From positions 62,001 to 126,000 of the forward strand of contig CAMYKK010000006.1 in the NCBI GenBank assembly GCA_947258975.1: a DNA stretch of 64,000 nt, read 5' to 3'. The stretch's first letter is position 1. Each line of letters begins with the position of its first letter. The notes beneath the pieces were generated by a model, which was given only the letters and a program-made list of their open reading frames with translations, had not been told where the DNA came from and did no database searches. This DNA comes from an uncultured Gammaproteobacteria bacterium. Lineage in GTDB: Bacteria; Pseudomonadota; Gammaproteobacteria; Arenicellales; JAANXG01. A program made the translations under genes and the position numbers. Below are positions 43,271 to 58,124 of the stretch, in pieces.

Positions 43271-43906
43271 CTACGACTTCGCCGTTTGATCGACTTCCCC
43301 GCTAAAACATACCCACGTGGTCGCGATGTATTTAGTTCCTTGTTCCAGCATGACACCACGGTGTGCGTGGGTCCAAAACGGTGGAAACAAGATCAGCTTA
43401 CCGGTCTCGGGTTTGATCTTGACGTCATGAAAATAAAATTCGGTCTCACCACCGGGGCCATCTACGTCGTTTAGATACCATATGGCGACCAACTGCCGCT
43501 GACTGAACTCGCCGGGCCCGCTGTCCACATGCCAATGATAAAACTGTTCCCGCTGCGTGCGCTGCATGTTGTAACCCATATCGCGCAAGGAATTGGAAGC
43601 GAAGAACGGGTGAACTTTGGCGATTTCATTAACTGCGGCGCTCAAGGATAGGAACAAGCCCTCATCGACGGATTTCCAATCCTGTCTGCCGCTGATTCGC
43701 AGATCGGACGAGCGCTTGATCGACCGCTCTTCGTCCTGCTGCGGGCCGATTCTGCCGGGATACTGTTGTTCCGGGTGAGCCTCGAAGCGGCGTATCATGT
43801 CGTCACAGATCTCGCGCGTCAGGGCATGACTCACCTCGTAGATGAAGCTGTGGGGGGCGACTTCGCTGAGCGTATAGTCAAGCACAGGGTCGCACTTTGA
43901 TCTCAT
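43271..43906 (-). CDS. 2OG-Fe(II) dioxygenase (prolyl-4-hydroxylase-like)
   Basis: A 211-residue jelly-roll oxygenase. Iron ligands are visible as HWHVDSGPGEF (HxD) and the distal His in PFWTHAHRGVML. The 2OG arginine is not certain. GGETEFYFHDVKIKPETGKL matches the P4H-type GxxxF region. The substrate is unknown. Found between the siroheme-chelatase operon and the dsrS region, on the minus strand next to the 109-aa gene. Confidence 0.85.
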   Translation of the reverse strand: MRSKCDPVLDYTLSEVAPHSFIYEVSHALTREICDDMIRRFEAHPEQQYPGRIGPQQDEERSIKRSSDLRISGRQDWKSVDEGLFLSLSAAVNEIAKVHPFFASNSLRDMGYNMQRTQREQFYHWHVDSGPGEFSQRQLVAIWYLNDVDGPGGETEFYFHDVKIKPETGKLILFPPFWTHAHRGVMLEQGTKYIATTWVCFSGEVDQTAKS

Positions 43907-45564: not shown

Positions 45565-45687
45565 TGTTGCCGGGTTCGGCGGCAATTGGAACTGGCCCGC
45601 AGTTTGCACCAAAGATCCTGGATGATGGCGCAGTACTCGTGCAGCTGAGTCCCCTCCTGTGCTTGTGCTGCGAGGAGTTCCCCTGCC

Positions 45688-45770
45688 GTGCGGGGACAAG
45701 CCCCCTGCTGTGCGGGGACAAGCCCCCTGCTGTGCGGGGACAAGCCCCCTGCTGTGCGGGGACAAGCCCC
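45688..45770. repeat. 22-bp tandem repeat, 3.8 copies
   Basis: The unit GTGCGGGGACAAGCCCCCTGCT occurs at 45688, 45710 and 45732, with a partial fourth at 45754. The GGGGACAAGCCCC part of each unit can fold into a small hairpin. Twenty-two is not a multiple of three, so the repeat cycles frames and is not coding. It lies upstream of dsrS. Confidence 0.85.
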
Positions 45771-45782
45771 GCGGCTGGAACG

Positions 45783-45824
45783 ATGCAAAATGGGGGTCAG
45801 ATTTGAAATCAGACCCCATTTTCT
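45783..45824. repeat. second REP-like hairpin upstream of dsrS
   Basis: AAAATGGGGGTCAGATTT and its near reverse complement AAATCAGACCCCATTTT form an imperfect inverted repeat related to that at 44346-44388. Together they bracket dsrS and its 22-bp repeat. Confidence 0.65.
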
Positions 45825-51082: not shown

Positions 51083-51298
51083 TTATCTCCTGGACCCCTT
51101 TTCCGCGTGGGCGAGGTCCACCAACCGCGATGACATCTCGTCGTACTTCTCTTTGTGTTGAAACAGGGGGTGCCCCTCCTCGCTTACCCAGTACTCCTCG
51201 GGTTCAACACCTTTTTTATGCTCGAATTCAATAAATTTTTTCTGCATCTCGAGCATCTGCTCGATCAGTTTACGCTTCTCGGTAGCTGCATCGCTCAT
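51083..51298 (-). CDS. small conserved protein of unknown function
   Basis: 71 residues from ATG 51298. A charged helical protein: KRKLIEQMLEMQKKFIEFEH, then PEEYWVSEEGHPLFQHKEKY and a basic end. No motif or signal. It is downstream of the DsrC-like gene on the same strand and has its own terminator. Function unknown, but linkage to the adjacent sulfur genes is suggestive. Confidence 0.65.
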   Translation of the reverse strand: MSDAATEKRKLIEQMLEMQKKFIEFEHKKGVEPEEYWVSEEGHPLFQHKEKYDEMSSRLVDLAHAEKGSRR

Positions 51299-51407
51299 CT
51301 CAAAAATCCTCAACGTCCAAATACGTGATCTCGAGTCACCCTACCACAGGCGGAAGACAAAACGGCATACGCCTTTATGGATAGCCATATTCGCACCGCA
51401 TCGCGAA

Positions 51408-51746
51408 TCAATAACCGCCTTTGCGGCGCGACTCTGGAAGGCCCGCGATCTTGCCGCCTTGCTTGCTGGGCATCAGCGGAAACAAGTCATACATCTCCTT
51501 GCTGCTGAGTTTTGTGTTCCATAGTTTGCCCACAGCTTTCAAGATTGTGCGCTCATTGGGTTGATTGCCGCCCTGGTTGAAATACTCGTCTCGCAGATAG
51601 TTGATGACATCCCAGTGTTGATCAGTAAGCTCGATTCCCTCCAGGGACGCTATATGACGAGCGAGCTCTGCACTCCAATCATCGGCATTGACGAGATGAC
51701 CGTTGGCGGTGGTCTCTATTGTTTTACCTCGGAACTCTAAGGCCAT
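51408..51746 (-). CDS. DsrC/TusE-family protein lacking all cysteines (RspA-like)
   Basis: 112 residues from ATG 51746, with AAGGAGAC upstream. The fold is that of DsrC: ALEFRGKTIETTANGHLV, LTDQHWDVINYLRDEYFNQG, YDLFPLMPSKQGGKIAGLPE. The C-terminal arm reads SRRKGGY and contains no Cys at all, whereas DsrC at 58470 keeps two. Cys-free members have been called RspA and proposed as regulators rather than carriers; that role is not proven. It is the last gene of the TauD-to-Cas6-like run. Confidence 0.85.
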   Translation of the reverse strand: MALEFRGKTIETTANGHLVNADDWSAELARHIASLEGIELTDQHWDVINYLRDEYFNQGGNQPNERTILKAVGKLWNTKLSSKEMYDLFPLMPSKQGGKIAGLPESRRKGGY

Positions 51747-51792
51747 GGTTTGTCTCCTTAAAACTGCTGAGTATCCACATGGGGTTAATGTG

Positions 51793-52482
51793 TTAGTCGT
51801 CATCGTCGGTGGTCACCGGTTTGATTCCTTTGTGCGGAATGAAAAGCCCGCAGCCGATGCCGCGACCGGGTCCGAGACCGCGCTGTTGCAATAACACCGA
51901 TTCCTCCGGTTTGAGGTCCGCCAGCATCAGGCTGCGCACCAATACGCGCTGCGTCGGGAATGCGAACGATGATTGCCGGCCGCACAACAACTTGCGCACC
52001 TGTATCCCCAGGCGTTCCAGCTCGGCAACATAATGCGTCACGAATTCCGACTCGGTTTGCACCGTCTCGACGATGACATGGCGGGAAAAAAGCGTTGTTT
52101 GTGCGCTCAACGGCCTGACCGTGGCGGCACCCACGGTCATTTCGTGTCCGCCAACATCCAGACGATGGCCGGTCAGGGCGCGGGCGTCGTCCAGGCGCGC
52201 CTTGGGCAGCCGCAGCCGTAAACGGGTGCGCCGCGAGAGCTGCAGCAGCGCGCCCTCGGAATCGGCGGGCCGGTACCAGCCATTGCCCGATTCGGCGACG
52301 TGGATCAGATGGATCCCGGCATCCGGTTCGGATTCCAACCACGGCAGCACGCCGGTGATGGCGCGCGACAAGGCATAGGCATGGTCCACTGGCAGGCAGC
52401 GTGCCTGCATCCGGAACGCAAGATCCTGGACGTCGTCGGGAACGACGAAATTCCGGGCCACCGATTTGTCGTGCCAATACAT
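51793..52482 (-). CDS. Cas6/Cmx6-like protein without a CRISPR array
   Basis: 229 residues. Shows FVVPDDVQDLAFRMQARCLP at the start and two RAMP-like halves. Near the end LKPEESVLLQQRGLGPGRGI runs into GCGLFIPHKGI, the Gly-rich loop of Cas6-type RNA endonucleases (closest in my memory to type I-MYXAN Cas6/Cmx6). No cas gene or repeat array is in the window. The stop of the upstream 235-aa gene is four bases before this ATG, and the DsrC-family gene follows, so it belongs to a sulfur-linked operon. An RNA-binding or processing role is inferred. Confidence 0.7.
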   Translation of the reverse strand: MYWHDKSVARNFVVPDDVQDLAFRMQARCLPVDHAYALSRAITGVLPWLESEPDAGIHLIHVAESGNGWYRPADSEGALLQLSRRTRLRLRLPKARLDDARALTGHRLDVGGHEMTVGAATVRPLSAQTTLFSRHVIVETVQTESEFVTHYVAELERLGIQVRKLLCGRQSSFAFPTQRVLVRSLMLADLKPEESVLLQQRGLGPGRGIGCGLFIPHKGIKPVTTDDDD

Positions 52483-52485
52483 GGT

Positions 52486-53193
52486 TCAGTTTACCGGCAG
52501 CGTGGCCTGAATCTGGTCACGATCGAACCACCAGTCGTCCTGCACCATCACGTCAATGACATTGCGCAGCCGCACCAGGAATTTGGCCGGATCGGTGAGT
52601 TCCAGCCGTGCCATCCAGCCGTCGAATTCATCCTGACTCGCTACATTGGCGTGCCGGCGTGCGACGCTGCCCAGCAACTGCATCGCGAAGAAATGCAGAT
52701 CACGGCGTTGTCCTTCCGCAGCGCGCAGATCCACGGCGTAGACGGCGGTGGCCGCGGCCACCGCGGCGCCGTCGGCAGTATCCGGTGTTTCGTCCACGAT
52801 GTGCTGCAACATGGCAACGGTCAATTCCGGATCGATGGGAAAGGTCACCGCCAACCACACGCCCTGGCCAAGTGCGCTGAGGGAGGCTTGCTGATCGGCG
52901 CGGTATAACAGATCAAAGACCTCCACCGCCTTTTCCCAGTGCTCACCGTCGATATAAACTGCGACGATCGGCCGGACGCTTGCCCATGCCTCGTCACCAC
53001 GGTCCAACGCGATCAGCAACGCAGCCCTTTGCTTTTCCAGATCGGCGCGTTGCATCGGGTCGGCATCGCTTCCGAGCTCCAGCAGCCGCTCTTGTAACGC
53101 GCACAAGCGCGACTCGTTGGCGGCGCTGGACGCGATTGCCTCTTCGCCGCTCTCAGCGCCGAGGTCGAACTGATCAATATTGATATGTTTCAT
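52486..53193 (-). CDS. helical protein of unknown function (TPR-like)
   Basis: 235 residues, acidic and almost wholly alpha-helical: RLCALQERLLELGSDADPMQ, DEAWASVRPIVAVYIDGEH, AVEVFDLLYRADQQASLSAL, FAMQLLGSVARRHANVASQD. The helix-turn-helix rhythm suggests TPR-type repeats, i.e. a scaffold or binding protein. It is between the 68-aa gene and the Cas6-like gene in a run without real gaps. No catalytic motif. Function unknown. Confidence 0.65.
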   Translation of the reverse strand: MKHINIDQFDLGAESGEEAIASSAANESRLCALQERLLELGSDADPMQRADLEKQRAALLIALDRGDEAWASVRPIVAVYIDGEHWEKAVEVFDLLYRADQQASLSALGQGVWLAVTFPIDPELTVAMLQHIVDETPDTADGAAVAAATAVYAVDLRAAEGQRRDLHFFAMQLLGSVARRHANVASQDEFDGWMARLELTDPAKFLVRLRNVIDVMVQDDWWFDRDQIQATLPVN

Positions 53194-53207: not shown

Positions 53208-53414
53208 TTACTCAAGATCCGTTTCATCCAGGGCCGCGGTGAACGCCGCTTCGAGGCGATCTTCCCAATTCTCCGGTGTATCTTTGAACGGCGGTCTGAT
53301 GTCCATGCGGAAGAAGCGTTCGCCATTGCGAGCGCCGGCCTTGACCAGCCCAGCCAACTCATCGAACGAATCGATGTCCTGATTTTGCAGCAGAATTTCA
53401 CTAAGCCAGAGCAT
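53208..53414 (-). CDS. small protein of unknown function
   Basis: 68 residues, overlapping the TauD-like gene by 14 bases in another frame: LWLSEILLQNQDIDSFDELA, then GERFFRMDIRPPFKDTPENW and an acidic end. The overlap and 14-base spacing to the next gene support it as real. No motif. Function unknown. Confidence 0.6.
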   Translation of the reverse strand: MLWLSEILLQNQDIDSFDELAGLVKAGARNGERFFRMDIRPPFKDTPENWEDRLEAAFTAALDETDLE

Positions 53415-54360
53415 GTTCGGTCGCGCTCAAAAAGCTGTCCGTGTCGGTCTCGTTAATGCGATCGTAATAGCGCGCGCGATACAACAACCGCCCACCCGCC
53501 GCACCATTGGAGAACGCAGACCGGTTGTGCAGGACATTGTTGCACACCAGACCTTGACCGGGACGCAGGCGGTGTTGCAATACATATGGGGTCTGGCGCG
53601 ACAGAATCTCAACCAGAACACCCACGGCGTCCCGCGTGATGGGATCGTCGCGCCAGGTAATCGACCGGGTGCGCGCGGTATAGCGCATGTGTAACGACCC
53701 GGTAACGGGATCGACGGAGAATACCGGGCCGCTCTGGGCGCCGCGCGTCGATCCGCCACCGTGGTGGGCGGGAACGGTCATCGCCTGTGGGTGCATGAGT
53801 GCGTGGACATAGTCGGGGTTCTCGTCGCGCATCAGGATGTACGCCATCTCCGGGTCCAGGAGTTGGTTGATGCCGCCCTGCGAGGCGTTGCGAACGCAGT
53901 GCAATACGAAGGCGCGTATCTGCTGGCTGCCAGGGTTGTAGTAGCCGTCGGTGTGCCAGTTGAGGGCGCGGTCGGTGTAGGGAATGTAGCCGGCATGCAG
54001 GTCTTCGGACCGCACCTCCAGCGAGCTGATGCCGTCGTGATCCGCACACAGGTTGTTGTCCAAGCGGGTCAGTCCGAGCTGCGCGCCCAGCCGGCGCACG
54101 GCAGATTTGTCCATTGGGGCGGCGCAGTGATAGAGCGCGAGGTTCGCGCTGCGGCATCGGTGCAGCAATGCCTCGCGCTCGGCGCGGGTCAACGCGTGGG
54201 GATCGCCGATTTCGACCATCAAATCCGGCGCGCCGCGCGGATGATGCGCGAGTTTCTTCTGCCGCCAGACCGCATACGCGCCGCTGTCGCTCAGGGAAAA
54301 CGGATTCCCCGATGCCGGGGCGGACACGTGATGCGTCGTTGTGCGGGTCATGGTCGTCAT
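53401..54360 (-). CDS. TauD/TfdA-family dioxygenase
   Basis: A 319-residue Fe(II)/2OG oxygenase. The iron motif HxD appears in ALNWHTDGYYNPG, the distal His in VCNNVLHNRSAFSNG and the 2OG Arg in LLYRARYYDRI. The family oxygenates small acids such as taurine; here the substrate is unknown. TauD-type enzymes can release sulfite from sulfonates, which would suit its place beside sulfur-oxidation genes, but this is inference. It is first in the operon and divergent from dsrA. Confidence 0.85.
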   Translation of the reverse strand: MTTMTRTTTHHVSAPASGNPFSLSDSGAYAVWRQKKLAHHPRGAPDLMVEIGDPHALTRAEREALLHRCRSANLALYHCAAPMDKSAVRRLGAQLGLTRLDNNLCADHDGISSLEVRSEDLHAGYIPYTDRALNWHTDGYYNPGSQQIRAFVLHCVRNASQGGINQLLDPEMAYILMRDENPDYVHALMHPQAMTVPAHHGGGSTRGAQSGPVFSVDPVTGSLHMRYTARTRSITWRDDPITRDAVGVLVEILSRQTPYVLQHRLRPGQGLVCNNVLHNRSAFSNGAAGGRLLYRARYYDRINETDTDSFLSATEHALA

Positions 54361-54660
54361 CTTAGCGCAGTTAAAAACGGGATTTTTCCAGGGCCTTTAT
54401 CATTGTGTTTGGTCTACACCACCGCCGGCCTGCCTTCGGATCGGCGTGCGTGCGTGCAGGGCGCGGATTGTAATGAAGCTGACTGCGGCCGTTAATCCGG
54501 CAAACGGGGTAGGGCGCCGGTCGCACGGGTCGCCCAGCGTCAACTTCGTTGGCGCCCGCACCCCGGGATGCATCGGTATGTAAAATCTCTGCTTTTCAGC
54601 AACTTGCGGACGTCCGCCGCCCGTTGCCGGGACCAGGCGGCAGCCCGCCGGTAAAACGCC

Positions 54661-54676
54661 TATCTCTTAAGAGATA
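54661..54676. promoter_or_regulatory. perfect 16-bp palindrome upstream of dsrA
   Basis: TATCTCTTAAGAGATA is exactly self-complementary, 190 bases before the dsrA ATG in a GC-rich stretch. Such a site is typical of a dimeric regulator. The protein is unknown. It could serve dsr, the divergent tauD-like operon, or both. Confidence 0.55.
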
Positions 54677-54693
54677 CGGGGTGGTGGCCATTT

Positions 54694-54708
54694 CCTCCCA
54701 TAAGGAGG
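54694..54708. promoter_or_regulatory. small hairpin CCTCC-N5-GGAGG in the dsrA leader
   Basis: An inverted repeat 18 bases after the 16-bp palindrome. If within the leader transcript, it hides a GGAGG motif in a stem. No open frame follows that would use it. Significance uncertain. Confidence 0.3.
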
Positions 54709-54865
54709 GTGCGTCCGACACGCGAACCTCAATACAATCCGTCAGTGAATTTTTTCGGCGTTGGCACGGGCCCGGCATTAATCCCGTGACGCCATTGAAG
54801 ACGCCGCGTTTCGAACGAACTCATCCGCTGACCAGCGGGCACGAAAGACTGAGGAGAGCAACACG

Positions 54866-56128
54866 ATGGCGAAATCAATTCATGACACACCGATGCTAGA
54901 CGAATTGGAGAACGGTCCCTGGCCGAGCTTCGTTTCCGGCATCAAGCGATTGCGCGATAAGCATTCCGATGAACGCATCAACGGCATTGCCAATGACTTA
55001 TTGGGTCAGCTGGAGCATTCCTATGAAACCCGCAAGGGTTACTGGAAGGGCGGCACGGTAAGCGTATACGGCTATGGCGGCGGCATCATTCCGCGTTTCT
55101 CCGAAGTCAGCGCCCAGTTCCCCGAGTCCAAGGAATTTCACACGCTGCGCGTGCAACCCCCCGCCGGCAATTTCTACACCACCGACATGCTGCGCAAACT
55201 GGGTGACAGCTGGGAGAAGTGGGGATCGGGGTTGGTGACGTTCCATGGCCAGACCGGGAACATCATGTTTATCGGCGCCAGCACCGAGAACACGCAGCAT
55301 TTCTTCGACGAGATCAACGACTACGGTTGGGATCTGGGGGGCGCCGGTCCGTGCGTGCGCACCGCCATGTCGTGTGTCGGATCGGCGCGCTGTGAGCAGT
55401 CATGCGCCAACGAGCACAAGATCCACCGCACCCTGGTCAATAATTTCACCGATGATGTACATCGCCCGGCGCTGCCGTATAAGTTCAAGTTCAAGGTCTC
55501 CGGATGTCCCAACGATTGCGTGAACTCTATCGAGCGCGCTGACTTTGCGGTGATCGGCACCTGGCGGGACGAGATCAAAGTCGATCAGCAGGAGGTCAAG
55601 GCGTTTGTCGACAAGAAGGGCCGTCAATACCTGATTGACAACGTCATCACCCGCTGCCCCACGAACTGTATGTCACTGACAGACGGCGACACCGTGGAGA
55701 TCGACGATCGTAACTGCGTCAAGTGCATGCATTGCCTGAACGTGATGCCGAAGGCGTTGTCCCCTGGCGACGACAAGGGCGTCACGATTTTGATGGGCGG
55801 CAAGCGGACCCTCAAGATCGGGGACCTGATGGGCACCGTGATCGTGCCGTTCATGAAGTTGGAGACCGAAAAAGACTATGAACGTATTACCGAACTCGCC
55901 GAGGAGACCATCGACTTCTGGGCCGAAAACGGTCTCGAGCACGAACGCTGTGGCGAGATGATCGAGCGTATCGGCTTGGTGAACTTCCTCGAGGGAATCG
56001 GCGTCGATGTTGATCCCAACATGGTGTCCCATCCCCGTGAGTCATCCTACGTGCGTATGGACGGATGGGACGAGGAAGCGGAAAAATGGTTTAGCCGCAA
56101 GGCGGAGGAGAAGGCGGCCGCCGGTTGA
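54866..56128 (+). CDS. dsrA: reverse dissimilatory sulfite reductase, alpha subunit
   Basis: DsrAB oxidises DsrC-bound or reduced sulfur to sulfite in the cytoplasm of sulfur oxidisers. The 420-residue subunit has siroheme-[4Fe-4S] cysteines as C170-x5-C176 (SCVGSARCEQSC) and C214-x3-C218 (SGCPNDCVNS). An inserted ferredoxin domain carries C264/C268 and C284/C287/C290 (RNCVKCMHCLNV). The order dsrABEFHCMKLJO and the presence of dsrL and dsrEFH identify the oxidative type. ATG 54866 has TGAGGAGAG upstream. Confidence 0.97.
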   Translation: MAKSIHDTPMLDELENGPWPSFVSGIKRLRDKHSDERINGIANDLLGQLEHSYETRKGYWKGGTVSVYGYGGGIIPRFSEVSAQFPESKEFHTLRVQPPAGNFYTTDMLRKLGDSWEKWGSGLVTFHGQTGNIMFIGASTENTQHFFDEINDYGWDLGGAGPCVRTAMSCVGSARCEQSCANEHKIHRTLVNNFTDDVHRPALPYKFKFKVSGCPNDCVNSIERADFAVIGTWRDEIKVDQQEVKAFVDKKGRQYLIDNVITRCPTNCMSLTDGDTVEIDDRNCVKCMHCLNVMPKALSPGDDKGVTILMGGKRTLKIGDLMGTVIVPFMKLETEKDYERITELAEETIDFWAENGLEHERCGEMIERIGLVNFLEGIGVDVDPNMVSHPRESSYVRMDGWDEEAEKWFSRKAEEKAAAG

Positions 56129-56219: not shown

Positions 56220-57296
56220 ATGGCGCGAAAAGAGATGCGCAGCCCGATCGAGTCCGGGTGCCCGGATGGTTTTCAGTACATGCATCCGGTGATGCTCAAG
56301 AATTTCGGTCAATGGAAGTACCACGAGCATCCACGACCCGGTGTGCTGCGCCACATTGCCCACAGCGGCGACGAGGTGTGGACCGTCAAGGCCGGTACGC
56401 AGCGCATCCTGGATATGTTCACCCTGCGCAAGCTGTGCGACATCGGTGACGAATTCGCCGACGGATATGTGCGCTTTACGATTCGCAGCAACATTGAGTA
56501 CATGCTCGAGGACGAGTCCAAGGTTGAGCCGTTGATCGGCGCCTTGGAGGGCGCGGGCTTCGTGGTCGGCGGCACCGCCAACTCGGTGGCGATGATCTCG
56601 CACACCCAGGGATGGTTGCATTGCGACATCCCCGGTACCGACGCCTCCGGTGTGGTGAAAGCGATGATGGATGAACTCATTGACGAGTTCAAAAACTGCA
56701 ATATGCCCAACCGCGTGCACGTTACCACCTCCTGCTGCCAGATCAACTGCGGCGGGCAGGGCGACATCGCCATCAACGTGCAGCACACCAAGCCGCCGAA
56801 GATCAATCACGATCTGGTCGCCAACGTCTGTGAGCGTCCGTCCGTGGTGGCGCGCTGCCCGGTGGCCGCGATTCGTCCCGCCCAGGTGAACGGCAAGCCG
56901 ACGCTGGAAGTGGATGAGAAAAAATGCATCTGCTGCGGCGCCTGCTATCCGCCCTGTCCGCCAATGCAGATCAACGATCCGGAACACAGCAAATTGGCGA
57001 TTTGGGTGGGCGGCAACCATTCCAATGCGCGTAGCAAACCGAGCTTTCAGAAGCTGGTTGCCGCGGGTGTGCCCAACAATCCACCCCGGTGGCCGGAGGC
57101 GACCGCGATCGTGAAAAAGATCCTGCGTTCCTACAAAGCGGACGCAAAAGATTGGGAACGCATCAACGATTGGATCGACCGCATCGGTTGGCCGCGGTTT
57201 TTCGAACTGACCGGGTTGCCGTTTACCAAATATCACATTGACAACTGGCGCGGCTCCCGCAAGAGTCTCAATTCATCGTCTTACATTCGGCTGTAA
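56220..57296 (+). CDS. dsrB: reverse dissimilatory sulfite reductase, beta subunit
   Basis: 358 residues, partner of DsrA in an alpha2beta2 complex. Siroheme-region cysteines appear in TTSCCQINCGGQGD (172/173/177) and VARCPVAA (213). The ferredoxin domain is at 236-246 (KKCICCGACYPPC). The ATG has GGAGG six bases upstream. A hairpin lies between it and dsrA. Confidence 0.97.
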   Translation: MARKEMRSPIESGCPDGFQYMHPVMLKNFGQWKYHEHPRPGVLRHIAHSGDEVWTVKAGTQRILDMFTLRKLCDIGDEFADGYVRFTIRSNIEYMLEDESKVEPLIGALEGAGFVVGGTANSVAMISHTQGWLHCDIPGTDASGVVKAMMDELIDEFKNCNMPNRVHVTTSCCQINCGGQGDIAINVQHTKPPKINHDLVANVCERPSVVARCPVAAIRPAQVNGKPTLEVDEKKCICCGACYPPCPPMQINDPEHSKLAIWVGGNHSNARSKPSFQKLVAAGVPNNPPRWPEATAIVKKILRSYKADAKDWERINDWIDRIGWPRFFELTGLPFTKYHIDNWRGSRKSLNSSSYIRL

Positions 57297-57308: not shown

Positions 57309-57701
57309 ATGAAATTCGGTATCCTCGTCAACGAAGGCCCCTATCAACATCAGGCCGCTGACACCGCGTTCAACTTCACCAAGGCGGCGCTGGACAAAGG
57401 CCATGAGATCGTACGCGTGTTCTTCTACCATGATGGTGTGAACAACGGCACGCGGCTGACTACGCCGCCGCAGGACGACCGGAATATCGTCAATCAGTGG
57501 AGCGAGTTGGCCAAGGAACACGAACTCGACCTGGTGGTGTGTGTTGCTGCTGCCCAGCGTCGCGGCATCGTGGATGAAGACGAAGCGAAGCGGCACGGAA
57601 AGAACGCCGACAATATCGCCGAGGGTTTCCGTATCTCCGGCCTCGGGCAGTTGATCGAGATGGGGATCAAGGCCGATCGCTTGATGGCGTTTGGCGACTA
57701 A
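57309..57701 (+). CDS. dsrE: DsrE, subunit of the DsrEFH sulfurtransferase
   Basis: 130 residues. DsrE2F2H2 receives sulfur from TusA and passes it to DsrC. The active Cys is Cys78 (DLVVCVAAAQRRGI), at the same position as in Allochromatium DsrE. Also DRLMAFGD at the end. Twelve bases after dsrB. Confidence 0.96.
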   Translation: MKFGILVNEGPYQHQAADTAFNFTKAALDKGHEIVRVFFYHDGVNNGTRLTTPPQDDRNIVNQWSELAKEHELDLVVCVAAAQRRGIVDEDEAKRHGKNADNIAEGFRISGLGQLIEMGIKADRLMAFGD

Positions 57702-57713
57702 AGAGGAGGGGAC

Positions 57714-58124
57714 ATGGGAAACGGTGCCAAAAAATTCATGTACGTGAACCGGCGGGCCCCCTACGGGACGATCTATGCGCTGGAGGGACTCGAGGTGGTG
57801 CTGATCGGTGCCGCCTTTGATCAGGATGTCTGCATGGCGTTTGTTGATGACGGCGTGTACCAGTTGCAGAAGGGTCAAGATACCGCTGAATCGAATATGA
57901 AAAACTTCTCTCCCACTTATCGCGCGCTCGGCGACTACGAGGTGACGAAGCTTTATGTGGAGAAAGAATCCCTGGAGCAGCGGGGCATGAGCGAAGACGA
58001 TCTGATGGAGTTGACCTACGAAGACGAGGACGACGATTACCAGGAGAAGCCGTCGATCCGGATCGTAAACCGCGGGGAACTGACGGATTTAATGGAACAA
58101 CAAGATGTCATCCTGAATTACTAG
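57714..58124 (+). CDS. dsrF: DsrF, subunit of the DsrEFH sulfurtransferase
   Basis: 136 residues: KFMYVNRRAPYGTIYALEGL, then VVLIGAAFDQDVCMAFVDDG with a Cys, DTAESNMKNFSPTYRALGDY. Belongs to the DsrE-like fold and forms the heterohexamer with DsrE and DsrH. The ATG follows GAGGAGGGG. Confidence 0.96.
   Translation: MGNGAKKFMYVNRRAPYGTIYALEGLEVVLIGAAFDQDVCMAFVDDGVYQLQKGQDTAESNMKNFSPTYRALGDYEVTKLYVEKESLEQRGMSEDDLMELTYEDEDDDYQEKPSIRIVNRGELTDLMEQQDVILNY

Follow-up and report, generated by a model that had tools for sequence, protein, structure and literature searches.

We show, on the basis of sequence comparisons across genomes, that the predicted protein encoded at positions 51793..52482 (minus strand) belongs to a clade of RAMP proteins of the Cas6/Cmx6 type that is old and distinct, and that this clade is part of the reverse-Dsr locus and not of CRISPR-Cas. 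The gene lies in a stretch of 64,000 nucleotides from an uncultured gammaproteobacterium, here called the window. It starts with ATG and codes for 229 amino acids, so that the coordinates and strand in the first-pass annotation, which had proposed a relative of the Cas6/Cmx6 endonucleases inside a sulfur-gene operon, were right. In the following, the protein and its relatives are referred to as dsr-linked Cas6.

The ORF at 51793..52482 encodes a true Cas6/Cmx6 homologue

The ORF matches the Pfam family Cas6 (PF09559) with 209.5 bits (E 6e-62, cut-off 26.7) and the NCBIfam Cas6/Cmx6 equivalog TIGR02807 with 127.6 bits, above the cut-off of 98.85. The latter would label the protein, like 8/8 relatives tested, as a type I-MYXAN Cas6/Cmx6, and the PADLOC Cas6 models are matched by 99/99 members of the dsr-linked clade. 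The AlphaFold model (m68401dbe2886; pLDDT 90.4, pTM 0.86) contains the two ferredoxin-like halves of Cas6, i.e. the double ferredoxin-like RAMP fold, and Cas6 structures head the list of its fold matches. The top structural match is 8fcj_B, the Cas6 of a type I-B CRISPR-associated transposon (CAST) (Z 24.7, rmsd 2.2, 198 residues aligned, 25% identity). The same chain is matched by sequence in the PDB with an E of 1.7e-14, and of 1e-26 when a profile of 99 relatives is used. Archaeal and Thermus Cas6 and Cas6e (3pkm, 2y8w and others) have the same fold and match the model with Z 9-16, but they are only 9-16% identical to the protein and stand in a CRISPR context. The ORF is a true Cas6/Cmx6 homologue, with a similarity far beyond chance. 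The relation claimed in the first pass was therefore borne out by profile and fold, as well as by the tree described below, and a lack of Cas6 similarity is excluded.

Dsr-linked Cas6 co-occurs with dsrA

The class was sampled evenly with 369 genomes, of which 118 contained the Cas6-like gene, with 34-61% identity outside its own genome. There was one match per carrier in all but G264, whose two matches are pieces of a single gene. We counted dsrA at a best E of ≤1e-30; the first value beyond this limit, 8e-19, belongs to G318, whose dsrA is cut by a contig end, and was left out. Both genes were present in 111 genomes, Cas6 only in 7, dsrA only in 8 and neither in 243. Thus, dsrA was found in 111/118 carriers versus 8/251 of the other genomes (phi 0.91, p 7e-75, uncorrected for kinship). 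For six of the seven genomes with Cas6 only, the Cas6 contig stops before dsrA could be reached (L044, L054, L056, L068, L075 and L145). In the eight genomes with dsrA only, no Cas6 was found by a profile search at E 0.001. Five of these eight are less than 90% complete. One of the eight, G123, has the gene of the small operon protein p68 (see below) beside dsrA, 212 bases from the contig end, and its Cas6 may lie in an assembly gap. G110 (94% complete) and G207 (99% complete) are likely true absences of Cas6 despite the presence of dsrA.

An independent draw from a second order (that of G596, which we take to be Burkholderiales) gave Cas6 in 12/56 and dsrA in 12/56 genomes, with dsrA counted at E ≤1e-80. 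These were the identical 12 genomes (both 12, either one alone 0 and 0, neither 44), in each of which dsrA and Cas6 are 435-812 bases apart. In G757, of the same order, dsrA is in two pieces and falls below the family cut-off. A draw of 398 genomes from the phylum yielded five carriers, and in all of them (5/5) the gene was adjacent to dsr. Among the named carriers are Thioalkalivibrio sulfidiphilus ALJ17, T. denitrificans ALJD and Thiohalobacter thiocyanaticus Hrh1.

Cas6 was located away from dsr in 7/118 loci (L050, L062, L074, L107, L110, L111 and L115). The genomes of these displaced loci still contain dsrA in 7/7 cases and p68 in 5/7. The genes that adjoin the displaced Cas6 are unrelated and differ between families; in L111 a DsrE-family gene lies 7 kb off. 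In addition, five genomes of 1.0-1.1 Mb keep Cas6 next to dsr (L105, L109, L112, L113 and L114). Both the retention of the gene after it had left the operon and its retention in these five small genomes argue against mere linkage.

Operon structure and gene neighbourhood

Adding the regions around Cas6 in the 117 other carriers to the locus in the window gave 118 loci for comparison. Where dsrA falls within the region retrieved, the Cas6 operon diverges from it in every case (83/83 loci), and the median gap is 389 bases. In the window, the plus strand carries dsrA, encoding the reverse-type dissimilatory sulfite reductase alpha subunit (54866..56128; TIGR02064 635.5 bits at G000:C6:116896-118107, PF01077), dsrB (56220..57296) and two DsrE-family genes (57309-57701 and 57714-58124; PF02635 with 109 and 87 bits, respectively). 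dsrB was named by position and sequence, and a homologous ORF stands beside dsrA in 75/118 loci. A second, more distant dsrA/dsrB-like pair is present in the same genome (G000:C3:214320-216622, 475.7 bits), and a second dsrA also occurs in several relatives.

On the minus strand, the operon begins with a gene encoding a TauD/TfdA-like 2-oxoglutarate oxygenase of 319 amino acids (53401..54360; PF02668, 70.7 bits), found in 81/118 loci, with WHTDGYY and NNVLH motifs that are conserved across 71 loci. It is followed by p68, a small acidic protein of 68 amino acids without a Pfam family (53208..53414, minus strand). By homology to the gene in the window, p68 was found in 98/118 loci, and by profile A2 in 106/369 genomes, i.e. 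105/118 Cas6 genomes versus 1/251 others. Its model is small and helical (pLDDT 89.3, pTM 0.70) and gave no Foldseek match at E <1. Between p68 and Cas6 lies a gene for a 235-amino-acid protein (52486..53193, minus strand; 45/118 loci) without a Pfam match over the cut-off. It had been described as adjoining Cas6 with a four-base spacing; the two are indeed neighbours, but the end of the 235-aa ORF precedes the Cas6 start by three bases. The small protein p76, encoded at the end of the operon (51083..51313, minus strand; 58/118 loci), also has no Pfam match over the cut-off.

Downstream of Cas6, on the same strand, lies a DsrC paralogue (ORF 51408-51803; PF04358, 108 bits). The domain is that of the DsrC/TusE/RspA family, but the protein ends in -RKGGY and not in the two redox cysteines. 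Its likely start is an internal ATG at 51746, preceded by GGAG, which would give a gene at 51408..51746 and a product of 112 amino acids. This product has no cysteine, as the first pass had stated for the DsrC relative, whereas the longer ORF contains one. Such cysteine-free proteins of the DsrC family are called RspA. A same-strand DsrC copy is present near Cas6 in 89/118 loci, and in 89/89 of these one copy ends in KGGY, which stands in the place of the two C-terminal redox cysteines of DsrC. Canonical DsrC copies on the opposite strand end in ...GCV or ...GCI and have a cysteine within the last three residues in 97/103 cases (163 loci compared, with some genomes counted twice). In both orders, the cysteine-free DsrC-KGGY paralogue marks the locus. 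A paper on the Solemya velum symbiont notes dsrC homologues that lack the C-terminal cysteines (PMC4287430).

In the second order, the operon consists of genes for a DUF6967 protein, Cas6, DsrC-KGGY, a sulfurtransferase, a 200-aa protein and a TauD-like protein. The DUF6967 protein (71-72 aa) takes the place of p68 there and also in L083. The sulfurtransferase is TusA in L197 and a rhodanese in L195. Synteny with sulfur genes, including the DsrC family, is thus conserved and much stronger than could be seen in the first pass, as it extends to dsrAB itself and to two orders.

No CRISPR context was found at the locus

Cas6 is the enzyme that matures CRISPR RNA by cutting. No CRISPR-like array was found in the 64-kb window and none of 20 long window ORFs put through PADLOC was a cas gene, which agrees with the first-pass annotation. 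It had left room for a CRISPR-cas locus just outside the window; in the rest of the genome (96% complete), which has a single PF09559 gene, neither Cas1 nor DevR/Cas7 was found. Beside the fetched genes no CRISPR array was detected by a simple exact-repeat scan of 198 loci. The two tandem repeats at the contig ends of L115 and L163 lack variable spacers. The window itself has a 22-base tandem repeat at 45680-45789, with four or so copies and no spacers, within the region of a 478-aa ORF without a Pfam family. Rfam gave no match in the window at gathering thresholds. Neither a scan of viral contigs nor a plasmid search started from the window protein gave a relative.

Across the 369 genomes, a Cas1 match was present in 50/118 Cas6 carriers versus 85/251 non-carriers (phi 0.08, p 0.13). 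It was absent from 68/118 carriers, a count that does not reach solitary effector systems free of Cas1. In the loci of the relatives, dsr genes stand where cas genes would be. The Cas6-like protein does not behave as a CRISPR gene.

A further 2-oxoglutarate oxygenase in the window (43271-43906) matches the PADLOC model '2OG, CAS-associated'. We speculate that this label could stem from dsr loci mistaken for CRISPR, as 2-oxoglutarate oxygenases lie near dsr-linked Cas6.

Conserved residues, net charge and phylogeny

The Gly-rich C-terminal loop of the Cas6 type that had been noted in the first pass (GLGPGRGIGCGLF) is conserved: among 116 aligned rows, G202 is kept in 115, G204 in 112, G210 in 114 and G212 in 116. 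Furthermore, H34 is kept in 117/118 carriers, and G68, W69, R85 and R91 in 118/118. H34 and H58 occur together in 152/163 rows, in which some genomes are counted twice; one dsr-linked member (L197) has neither. Either is a candidate for the catalytic histidine. H34 (7/9 CRISPR-type rows), R91, R134, Q199 and the GxG loop are common to dsr-linked and CRISPR-type Cas6. H58 is conserved on the dsr side and present in 2/9 rows on the CRISPR-type side, both of them the closest CAST-like ones; in the CAST Cas6 of 8fcj, residue 34 is N and residue 58 is H. Taken together, the conserved loop, histidines and arginines favour continued work on RNA.

Other residues mark the dsr side only, namely R85, E144, G168 and K218, to which W3 and an NGWxRP loop are added in the first lineage, the Gammaproteobacteria outside the second order. 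W3 and NGW are near-invariant, yet they lie in regions that the model leaves poorly ordered (residues 1-10 and 61-80). Such disorder in a single-chain model is what a docking segment would be expected to show.

The cyanobacterial type I-B/I-MYXAN Cas6/Cmx6 proteins, including the CAST Cas6 (8fcj_B, 8fcu_B), belong to the same Pfam and NCBIfam families and have the same fold as dsr-linked Cas6, but differ from it in context and charge. The cyanobacterial plasmid genes stand beside cas3/cas8/cas7/cas5 in 7/8 regions, whereas the dsr-linked clade stands beside dsrAB. The median net charge is -5.5 in dsr-linked proteins (n=50) and +7 in their CRISPR-type relatives (n=9). We built a tree of 63 rows, with eight cyanobacterial plasmid relatives, the 8fcj chain, 50 of the 99 dsr-linked proteins and four second-order rows (L197 twice). 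The nine CRISPR-type rows split off on one branch with a support of 100/99; the tree is unrooted and gives no order of descent. The first pass had spoken of a domestication, a term that presumes a direction; the unrooted tree separates the two groups and is silent on which came first. The eighth of the plasmid genes, a Cas6/Cmx6 of Gloeobacter morelensis (L204, 5971-8543), has no cas neighbours within 6 kb and is followed by a PAPS-reductase-family gene and then a cupin gene; it is perhaps another non-CRISPR Cas6.

Finally, the sequence distances of Cas6 were compared with those of its neighbours in 62 loci. The correlations with the TauD-like protein (r 0.76), p68 (r 0.63) and DsrA (r 0.44) were beyond all 500 permutations; with DsrB, r was 0.32, under the permutation maximum of 0.47 in the same 62 loci and 500 permutations.

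The intergenic region and the search for an RNA target

Two inverted repeats (54661-54676 and 54694-54708) lie in the intergenic region that separates dsrA from the divergent Cas6 operon (54361..54865). In relatives, inverted repeats are again found ahead of dsrA, as a TATCCC-N4-GGGATA palindrome and as a CACCCCAT...GGGTG type, and the palindromes precede a CTAGACT or TACAAT box. Among 108 leaders, GGGATAG was found in 33, CACCCCA in 41 and CTAGACT in 32, compared with 1.3, 2.6 and 1.7, respectively, in shuffles. Palindromes and box are likely a dsr promoter with operators.

No conserved hairpin was found in the 330-base dsrA leader (108 rows), nor in the gaps of both operons, and for the 120 bases ahead of dsrA the predicted folding was not better than that of shuffles (mean z -0.24, 108 rows). 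Recurrent hairpins, among them CTACCC(A/T)TGG, were considered as RNA target, but their place is well upstream of dsrA, ahead of a -10-like box, and they resemble DNA operators. Other recurrent hairpins of the gaps were set aside, being within the coding flanks (the end of dsrC). The negative charge of the protein and the lack of a target found in these searches speak against generic RNA binding.

Proposed role and alternatives

Since the Cas6-like gene goes with sulfur-oxidation genes and not with CRISPR, it probably serves sulfur metabolism. Our preferred reading, which we put forward with slightly less than even confidence from sequence and context, is that the protein regulates reverse-Dsr sulfur oxidation by cutting or binding RNA. 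The protein would have kept the Cas6 mode of recognising one or a few specific cellular RNAs, as a hairpin or junction. The candidate RNA is perhaps a dsr transcript or a small RNA, which would be cut or masked by the protein, and this would tune the expression of the sulfur-oxidation machinery post-transcriptionally. Points against this reading are the negative charge and the failure to find a target hairpin in the leader and gaps, the loss of both histidines in L197, the DsrB distances, and the two well-assembled dsrA genomes, G110 and G207, in which no Cas6 was found. The clade-specific N-terminal Trp and the NGWxRP loop may serve as docking site for a partner encoded in the operon, with p68 and DsrC-KGGY as candidates. 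That NGW docks p68 in particular is a tentative idea, as W69 is found in 118/118 carriers while 13/118 have no p68. DsrC-KGGY, unable to carry sulfur, could signal to the Cas6-like protein what state DsrAB or the sulfur relay is in. The fuller version, in which a Cas6 ribonuclease would set reverse-Dsr output via a cellular RNA, with signals from DsrC-KGGY as a sulfur-blind decoy and from the 68-aa partner, is a shade more tentative still.

The strongest competitor, though unlikely in our estimate, is that RNA work has been lost and that the Cas6 fold has been exapted as a scaffold or chaperone working with p68, DsrC-KGGY or DsrAB/DsrEFH. The acidic net charge would fit such a function, and so would the marks of the clade (W3, NGWxRP, R85, E144 and K218), which differ from the residues common with CRISPR-type Cas6. 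The tight co-occurrence with p68 and the fact that the highest distance correlations are those with the TauD-like protein and p68 point the same way. However, the Gly-rich loop, H34, R91 and R134 are retained and would be superfluous for a scaffold, and the invariance of W69 in carriers with and without p68 tells against this reading.

We regard as improbable that the operon is an RNA-modification module, in which the Cas6-like protein would present an RNA, e.g. a tRNA, either to the TauD-like oxygenase or to a relay of the TusE/DsrC type and so link sulfur supply to RNA modification. A Cas6-type protein, a 2-oxoglutarate oxygenase and a DsrC/TusE-family protein are indeed joined in the operon, with TusA or a rhodanese in that of the second order, but the DsrC partner has none of the cysteines that a relay needs. 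Moreover, the gene set tracks the dissimilatory dsrA and not tRNA thiolation in general, and the TauD-like gene is confined to 81/118 loci.

It is very improbable that the gene is a passenger carried with dsrAB by vertical descent or transfer, without a function in sulfur oxidation. Linkage alone could carry a gene that is always beside dsrAB where the stretch holds dsrA, but the frames are intact at 34-61% identity with near-invariant residues, and the gene is kept in genomes of 1.0-1.1 Mb and after leaving the operon in seven loci. Least probable of all is that the protein is a regular CRISPR Cas6 serving, in trans, arrays at other sites of the genome, which the TIGR02807 naming and the Cas1 matches in 50/118 carriers could suggest, but against which stand the 68/118 carriers without a Cas1 match, the about equal frequency of Cas1 in non-carriers, and the failure to find Cas1 or DevR in the own genome or an array in the window and the 198 loci scanned.

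Implications

In the open-access literature we found no description of a Cas6 in a dsr locus (subscription papers lay outside the scope of the search). The passages on Cas6 in PMC7540712, PMC10952691, PMC5728499, PMC5944118 and PMC8889020 deal with regular CRISPR systems or belong to a gene list. Being labelled a CRISPR protein by automatic annotation would hide dsr-linked Cas6. Matches to TIGR02807 or PF09559 in sulfur oxidisers are no evidence of CRISPR, which affects automatic counts of defence systems.

In two orders, the dsr-linked Cas6 clade accompanies the reverse dissimilatory sulfite reductase no less faithfully than do many named accessory proteins of Dsr. If the clade acts on RNA, sulfur oxidation, a globally important pathway, would gain a layer of post-transcriptional control, and a CRISPR ribonuclease could be studied in a second cellular use. 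Should the fuller version of our reading hold, with its signals from DsrC-KGGY and the 68-aa partner, no CRISPR RNA-processing enzyme would have been shown before to belong permanently to a central energy pathway.
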